Shown here in pieces: positions 1 to 1,803 of a DNA stretch of 64,000 bases (position 1 is its first letter; each line of letters begins with the position of its first letter). This DNA is from Gemmatimonadota bacterium (lineage in GTDB: Bacteria > Gemmatimonadota > Gemmatimonadetes > Gemmatimonadales > GWC2-71-9): assembly GCA_003169895.1 (NCBI GenBank), contig PNAE01000012.1:1-64000 (forward strand). Direction: 5' to 3'. The position numbers and the translations under genes were made by a program. The notes beneath the pieces are model-generated. The model was given only the letters and a program-made list of their open reading frames with translations. It did not search any database and was not told the origin of the DNA.

Positions 1-130
1 CCTATGTCCCCGGTCCGTACCTGACGCGAGGCTGTCTTTCTCTACTAACCCGTGATCCATCCGGTCGAGCGGAAGCAACAAGCGACCTTCTTCGCCCCAG
101 CGGCGCTGGTGGAGGCGGTGCTGCGTGTGC

Positions 131-186
131 GCCTCCAGGCTTTGCGGGCAGGGGGGTCACCGGCTCGATCCCGGTCGGCTTCGCCG
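131..186 (+). pseudogene. Degraded tRNA-Ala-like 3' half, copy 1
   Basis: The sequence runs like the anticodon-to-acceptor half of tRNA-Ala: an anticodon-loop-like TTTGCGG, then GGTCACC and a T-arm-like GGCTCGATCCC. The 5' strand of the anticodon stem carries a four-base insertion (CCAG), the loop is altered, and no convincing D-arm or 5' acceptor strand precedes it. It aligns over about 50 bases with the copy at 297-350. It is probably a tRNA remnant or a former integration-site scar; I see no integrase in the window. Confidence 0.55.
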
Positions 187-296
187 CTTGTCGAAATACG
201 TGTCCGGGTAACTGCGGTAGCGGATAAACGCACAACCCCGCACATTACCCGCAGGAGCGCACAAGCAGGACCAAGAGGGACACCCTTAGATGAGTG

Positions 297-350
297 CCCC
301 TCCGGGCTTTGCAAGCAGGGGGTCACCGGTTCGATCCCGGTCCGCTCCAC
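297..350 (+). pseudogene. Degraded tRNA-Ala(TGC)-like 3' half, copy 2
   Basis: This copy is better preserved than the one at 131-186. It has the anticodon loop TTTGCAA (anticodon TGC), GGTCACC, a consensus T-loop GGTTCGATCCC and an acceptor-like CCGCTCC followed by A. The expected 5' anticodon strand is interrupted by CCGG at the same place as the insertion in copy 1, and the 5' half of a tRNA is not recognisable. The rest of 1-384 holds no gene I can support. Confidence 0.6.
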
Positions 351-384
351 TGGTACCCCGTCAGTCCTCGTCACCCGGGTTGTC

Positions 385-1803
385 ATGCGCTTCCTCGCCT
401 CGCTGCTTCGTCCGCGCGCCGTCCTGGCCGCGGCCTCGTGCGCACTCGCCGGATGCAACGGCGGGGCGCTCTCGCCCAATCAGGCACGCACGGCCACGGT
501 GGCCGAGGTGCCGGGCGGCACGCTCAAGGGGGCCACGCTGGAGCGCTGGCTGCTCAGGTTGCCGACGCCGCCGACTTCAATCCCGGCCAACGTGCTGGTG
601 AGCACATGGATCAATACGGCGCTGATGGTCGACGCCCTGCGCAGCAACCGGCCCCTCGACGACTCCGCCACGATCGACGCCGTGATCCGGCCCGACGCCG
701 AACGCGGCGTCTCGATGCAGTATCTCGCCCAGCGCGACGCCAAGCGACCGCCAATCACCGACGCGGAAGCCGACTCGCTGGCCGACATCGATGCGGTCCG
801 TGTCTTCCAGCAGATCCTGGTGCGCCTTCCGATCAATGCGGATTCCCTCGCCGCGGCCGCCGTGAGTAATCGCGCCAAAGCGCTGCTGAAGCGCGCGCAA
901 GACGGCGCCAACTTCACGGCGCTGGCGATCGAGGCGTCGCCGGATTCGCAGACGCGCCGCGCTGGCGGCTACCTGCCCGCGCTCACCCGCGATCAGGTCT
1001 CCCGGCTGCCGCGACAGATGCAGCAGATCTGGATGCTCAAACCCGGCGGCATCTCCAACCCATTCATTTCCTCGGCCGGCGTCCATATCATGCGCCGCGC
1101 CACGCGTACCGAGGCGCGAGCGCAGCTGAAGCAATTCCTGGCGCCAATCCGGGCGCACCGGGCGGATTCCTTGTTCGTCGACTCGCTTGCCACCGCACAA
1201 CACATCGTGGTGCCGCCGGACGCAAGACCGCGCGTGCGCCTCATGGCGGTGGAACCGGTGATCGCCGCCGACAGCGCCCCGATGGCAACCTGGCAGGGTG
1301 GCGTCCTTACGCCGGCAATGGTCCGGAGCGCCACGCTCATGCTCGATCCCGCGACTCGCGTCCGGTTGAGCAACGGCTCCGATTCGGCAATCACCAGCTA
1401 TCTGATCGAGCTCGCCAAGCGGAAGATCGTGCTCACCGTCGTGGCCCCTGGACCCGGTCCCACCCTGGAGGCTCGCGGCACTCTCGCGCCGGCATACCGG
1501 AACGCGCTCGGAACGCTGCGCGAGTCGTTGGGCCACCTGCCGGCGACCCTCAATGCTGGCGACGCCGCGAGCCAGTACATCGATTCCGCCCTGGCGGGCC
1601 AGCACTCCGTGGCGCTTCCCGGTGCGCTCAGCGAGATCCTGCGGTCCAGCGCGAAGGTGCGGGTGGATTCCGTCGCGCTCCAATCGGTGCTGCGGGCCGT
1701 TGGGCCCGAGTGGCAAGTGCAGCACGCGAACGATTCCACCGCCCCGGCGAAGTCCGGTGCGGCGAGGGGCACAGCCCGACCGGCCGGCCCGCCGCCGCGA
1801 TGA
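385..1803 (+). CDS. Parvulin-type peptidyl-prolyl isomerase lipoprotein
   Basis: The 472-residue product starts with MRFLASLL, a hydrophobic stretch and a lipobox-like LAGC, so it is probably an outer-membrane or periplasmic lipoprotein. The middle (about residues 135-255) has PpiC/SurA features: QQILVRL, a GGYLPAL segment and a conserved ISNPFISSAGVHIM-type stretch. Proteins of this type assist folding of secreted and outer-membrane proteins. The frame stays open upstream, but that extension translates the tRNA-like remnants, so I chose the ATG that opens the signal sequence. No clear Shine-Dalgarno is visible. The stop overlaps the DUF167 start by 4 bp. The family call is fairly firm; client and catalytic activity are unknown. 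Confidence 0.75.
   Translation: MRFLASLLRPRAVLAAASCALAGCNGGALSPNQARTATVAEVPGGTLKGATLERWLLRLPTPPTSIPANVLVSTWINTALMVDALRSNRPLDDSATIDAVIRPDAERGVSMQYLAQRDAKRPPITDAEADSLADIDAVRVFQQILVRLPINADSLAAAAVSNRAKALLKRAQDGANFTALAIEASPDSQTRRAGGYLPALTRDQVSRLPRQMQQIWMLKPGGISNPFISSAGVHIMRRATRTEARAQLKQFLAPIRAHRADSLFVDSLATAQHIVVPPDARPRVRLMAVEPVIAADSAPMATWQGGVLTPAMVRSATLMLDPATRVRLSNGSDSAITSYLIELAKRKIVLTVVAPGPGPTLEARGTLAPAYRNALGTLRESLGHLPATLNAGDAASQYIDSALAGQHSVALPGALSEILRSSAKVRVDSVALQSVLRAVGPEWQVQHANDSTAPAKSGAARGTARPAGPPPR

Follow-up and report, generated by a model that had tools for sequence, protein, structure and literature searches.

Two tRNA-Ala(TGC) 3' halves as the probable attachment-site remnants of a decayed genomic island

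Two 3' halves of tRNA-Ala(TGC), located at the very beginning of contig C5, are very probably the attachment-site leftovers of a genomic island that was inserted into the tRNA-Ala(TGC) gene by a tyrosine integrase and has since decayed, and the locus would mark one end of that island. The genome consisted of 13 contigs with 3.42 Mb. The window, which refers to the whole stretch of DNA analysed, represents the first 64 kb of contig C5. The following features were placed at its beginning:

1..23, no strand assigned: insertion sequence end, where contig C5 begins; the 23 bases equal the start of contig C3
52..127, + strand: 76 bases of a gene for an Eco57I-type methylase, probably left over from the island; 89% identity to C8:351255-351330
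127..138, + strand: putative element-side flank of copy 1; 10 of 12 bases in common with the flank of copy 2
139..180, + strand: copy 1, decayed 3' half of tRNA-Ala(TGC); 88% identity to the tRNA, E 1.2e-7
294..305, + strand: putative element-side flank of copy 2; contains the CCGG previously taken for an insertion and is not tRNA sequence
306..349, + strand: copy 2, displaced 3' half of tRNA-Ala(TGC), proposed attR; 44/44 to the tRNA 3' end
385..1803, + strand: PPIC-type peptidyl-prolyl isomerase gene, Pfam Rotamase E 3.7e-11; right-hand neighbour of tRNA-Ala in relatives

The tRNA-Ala halves and the bases that precede them

The intact tRNA-Ala(TGC) gene was located at C8:1846898-1846970 and was the sole tRNA-Ala(TGC) found in the genome. 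ARAGORN assigned it the anticodon TGC, and the two other tRNAs of the genome matched by the DNA search received CGC and GGC. The same type of search aligned copy 2 with bases 31-74 of the 74-nt query, which included the C8 gene (E 1.4e-16), and this directly observed identity ran to the last encoded base of the tRNA. Considering this E-value together with the 1.2e-7 of copy 1, chance similarity could therefore be excluded. The preliminary description of this DNA had reported two tRNA-Ala(TGC)-like 3' halves lying 166 bp apart; both halves proved to be real when compared with the genome's own tRNA-Ala, both lie on the + strand, and the spacing of 166 was confirmed as a start-to-start distance.

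No tRNA was found at either copy by ARAGORN or in Rfam at the gathering threshold, and a permissive Rfam scan (E up to 10) of window 1-1000 gave no match. A tRNA 5' half, described as lacking, was indeed not found in window 1-350, where the best ungapped matches to tRNA bases 1-30 were 17/30 on the + strand and 16/30 on the - strand. These values were within the range of 500 base shuffles, for which one strand was scored (mean 15.7, maximum 20). ARAGORN also ruled out the candidate reading of either copy as an intact tRNA. Neither an intact tRNA model at a copy nor a lack of similarity to the genome's tRNA-Ala, the two outcomes named beforehand as contrary to the observation, was encountered, and the observation stands.

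An ORF of 144 residues on the - strand (window 45-479) crosses both halves in antisense, and the tRNA read in reverse accounts for its ERTGIEPVTPCLQS stretch. Antisense-tRNA ORFs of this kind are common, and this one is probably spurious.

The preliminary description had further placed four extra bases in the anticodon stem of both copies, which turned out to be a misreading. Before GCTTTGC, the tRNA reads GGGAGAGCACCT, copy 2 reads GTGCCCCTCCGG, and copy 1 reads GTGCGCCTCCAG. The tRNA identity of the halves ends at GCTTTGC and everything 5' of this motif is non-tRNA sequence, leaving no tRNA stem with four added bases. The CCT that makes CCGG or CCAG look inserted is part of the 12-base flanks, which match at 10 of 12 positions, and the four bases are no longer to be taken for an insertion. 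Similarity between copy 1 and copy 2 spans about 57 bases, flank included. As far as sequence comparison can tell, the shared bases before the halves most plausibly represent the element's side of the crossover. Since the displaced halves of a tRNA-Gly(CCC) array in this genome also share one foreign flank, the shared flank is taken to be a residue of related elements.

A novel structured RNA, evolved from a tRNA and with the four inserted bases conserved, had also been suggested for the repeats. The two copies do have the tRNA part and 10 of the 12 bases 5' of it in common; however, displaced tRNA-Ala halves in three other genomes (G011, G039, and G041) did not keep the flank and were preceded by unrelated bases, neither Rfam nor ARAGORN gave a match, and the predicted folding gained no stability over shuffled sequences (z -0.60 for window 255-360 and z +0.43 for window 90-195). 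No cloverleaf or other supported structure, as for a tRNA or tRNA-like RNA gene, was found, and the probability of a structured RNA is close to negligible.

Copies 1 and 2 could also stem from one att end that was simply duplicated in place, in which case no second element was involved. Similarity that extends into the flank over about 57 bases, starts that are 166 bp apart, and the lack of an integrase between the copies all speak for this event, but the tRNA is matched far less well by copy 1 than by copy 2, and the genome carries tandem arrays with common flanks. Such a duplication is possible, though we lean against it, and it alters the origin of copy 1 only; the interpretation of the locus as an island end is untouched.

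Empty site in relatives and the contig ends

The isomerase gene starts 35 bases after copy 2. An uninterrupted empty site, with an intact tRNA-Ala and the isomerase gene immediately after it, was observed in four of the nine same-genus genomes (G001, G003, G004, and G007). The gene row of G001 consisted of an efflux pump, an outer membrane factor, an M28 peptidase, a small gene, tRNA-Ala, and the isomerase. G007 showed the same row minus the peptidase match, G004 showed the peptidase, tRNA, and isomerase, and G003 showed the adjacency, with the left-hand genes absent from the stretch read. The first five members of the G001 row were directly observed near the end of C8 in the present genome, and the isomerase gene at the start of C5. 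Direct adjacency of tRNA and isomerase was missing in five of the nine genomes: the two were 3 kb apart in G002, G005 and G006 were rearranged, and no adjacency was seen in G008 and G009. The empty site, the synteny, and an integrase stub beside the tRNA therefore suggest that the window opens at attR, the right-hand scar of a decayed island or of a collapsed tandem.

Insertion sequences were present at both contig ends. An IS21 element, whose ATPase gene was matched by Pfam, terminates C8 approximately 0.4 kb past tRNA-Ala, and 21 of the 23 bases that begin C5 were found again near the ends of C11 and C12. Because both ends lie at insertion sequences, no single contig contains the whole island, which would be bracketed by the C8 end and the C5 start. 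Among exact contig overlaps, no sequence joining the C8 end to the C5 start was found; the C8 end was tied by exact 23-base overlaps to C7 and C10, and none of these touches C5. It is very unlikely that rearrangement or insertion sequences alone split the tRNA-Ala/isomerase pair, with the tRNA 3' end copied by chance. The insertion sequences at both contig ends would fit such an event, but site-specific integration is what characteristically leaves a 44-base copy ending exactly at the tRNA 3' end and an integrase stub next to the tRNA. The C8 counterpart of the methylase gene fragment (C8:351255-351330) sits within a longer ORF that Pfam matches to Eco57I (E 3.2e-19).

The integrase stub and similar elements

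An open stub of 40 residues was observed at C8:1847053-1847172 on the - strand, opposite to tRNA-Ala, with its stop 79 bases past the tRNA. The stub aligned to the C-terminal ends of the integrases at 7 of the 11 PF00589 loci of the genome, with E-values of 7.6e-5 to 3.7e-4 against a very small database, and a Pfam search with the 40 residues gave no match. Five of the seven integrases lie beside an intact tRNA (tRNA-Ile, tRNA-Gly, two tRNA-Pro, and tRNA-Arg) and two beside a displaced 3' half. All seven point the C-terminal end at the tRNA part, at a distance of 97-152 bases in six and 721 in one. Judged from these alignments, the stub is a putative C-terminal remnant of a tyrosine integrase, placed like the seven integrases elsewhere in the genome, and one tyrosine integrase family would use several tRNA genes here (Ala, Ile, Gly, Pro, and Arg). 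This stub beside the tRNA was the only integrase sequence of the proposed island, to which no intact integrase was assigned. The general suggestion that tRNA 3' halves are traces of integrative elements is thus backed by the empty site of the relatives and by the stub beside the intact tRNA-Ala.

Thirty tRNA-Ala loci obtained by DNA search, one of them this genome's own, were compared for the stub. A match at E 3e-4 or better was found at 4 of the 29 other loci (G011, G022, G014, and G029). The match was downstream on the opposite strand in G011 and G022, as here, and on the 5' side of the tRNA in G014 and G029. The G011 element resembles the present one in its tRNA-Ala(TGC), in an integrase of the same family downstream on the opposite strand, and in a displaced 3' half (exact 47 bases, 15.7 kb past tRNA-Ala(TGC)), whereas its integrase is full-length and the flank of its displaced half is unrelated. 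A displaced tRNA-Ala(TGC) 5' half could be observed upstream of the intact copy in G014 (L171) and G029 (L172), with remnants of integrases likewise on the 5' side, so the related elements of these two genomes apparently target tRNA-Ala(TGC) from its opposite side.

Two further loci of the present genome carry displaced halves and support the island reading by their matching layout. Three displaced 3' halves of tRNA-Gly(CCC) at C1:49564-49631 (L143), C1:52583-52650 (L144), and C10:1315-1382 (L141) form a tandem array, each with the exact 42-base 3' end and all with one long foreign flank in common; one of the three is followed by an integrase gene. At C8:1404739-1424084 (L149, L150), tRNA-Ile(GAT) is accompanied by an integrase, and its exact 42-base 3' end is displaced 17.8 kb downstream, where a second integrase follows. 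This tRNA-Ile(GAT) locus represents two elements in tandem.

Comparison with known tRNA islands and proposed events

According to the Islander description (PMC4383910), a tRNA gene invaded by an island is made whole again and a displaced fragment of it persists, gene and fragment together delimiting the island; tandems and anticodon-centred sites are frequent. A 3' fragment was given there for 3760 of 3919 islands, an anticodon-centred site for 2083, and 125 tandems of two or more were counted (PMC4383910). The 3' fragment is to lie downstream of the gene at 2-200 kb, in the same orientation and on the same replicon, with an integrase gene in the island, and each member of a tandem is to have its own integrase and its own fragment (PMC4383910). 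An intact tRNA gene and a fragment ending at the tRNA end (44/44 to the 3' end) are present here, and the orientation of the fragment at the C8 end and C5 start fits this layout, C8 and C5 being unjoined contigs.

Like the anticodon-centred islands described there, the proposed island would have an intact tRNA at one end, a 3' fragment running to the tRNA 3' end at the other, and a tyrosine integrase beside the tRNA; it differs in that the integrase is reduced to a stub, an extra decayed half site is present, and the island is spread over separate contigs. Tandem tRNA-island arrays likewise contain several 3' fragments that point the same way, but the 166 bp between the half-site starts is too short for a second integrase, and no second member with its own integrase was found. 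The locus is a further instance of the common and well-known textbook tRNA-targeted integration and is otherwise ordinary.

The island is proposed to have been inserted into tRNA-Ala(TGC) by a tyrosine integrase, with the crossover presumably in the anticodon arm. It would have carried a tRNA 3' half of its own, for which reason the tRNA at the left end remained whole. The original chromosomal 3' half would have been displaced to the right end, where, as copy 2, it still immediately precedes the isomerase gene. Copy 1 may derive from a second, related element inserted in tandem, whose att site it would be, or from a duplicated end of the same element, and has since decayed. The preservation of the two, with copy 2 perfect and the inner copy 1 decayed, is the reverse of that given by simple accretion at a tRNA and speaks against the proposal in this respect. 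Both copies would share foreign bases 5' of the tRNA part because these are the end sequence of the element type. The island would since have decayed: the 40-residue integrase stub remains by the tRNA, the IS21 element lies past it, and another insertion sequence borders copy 1.

The 166-bp unit between the half sites could in addition be pictured as a minimal non-autonomous cassette, movable in trans by the other tRNA-island integrases of the genome. If true, this would account for the flank that the two half sites share on the element side, and we consider it improbable to a high degree.
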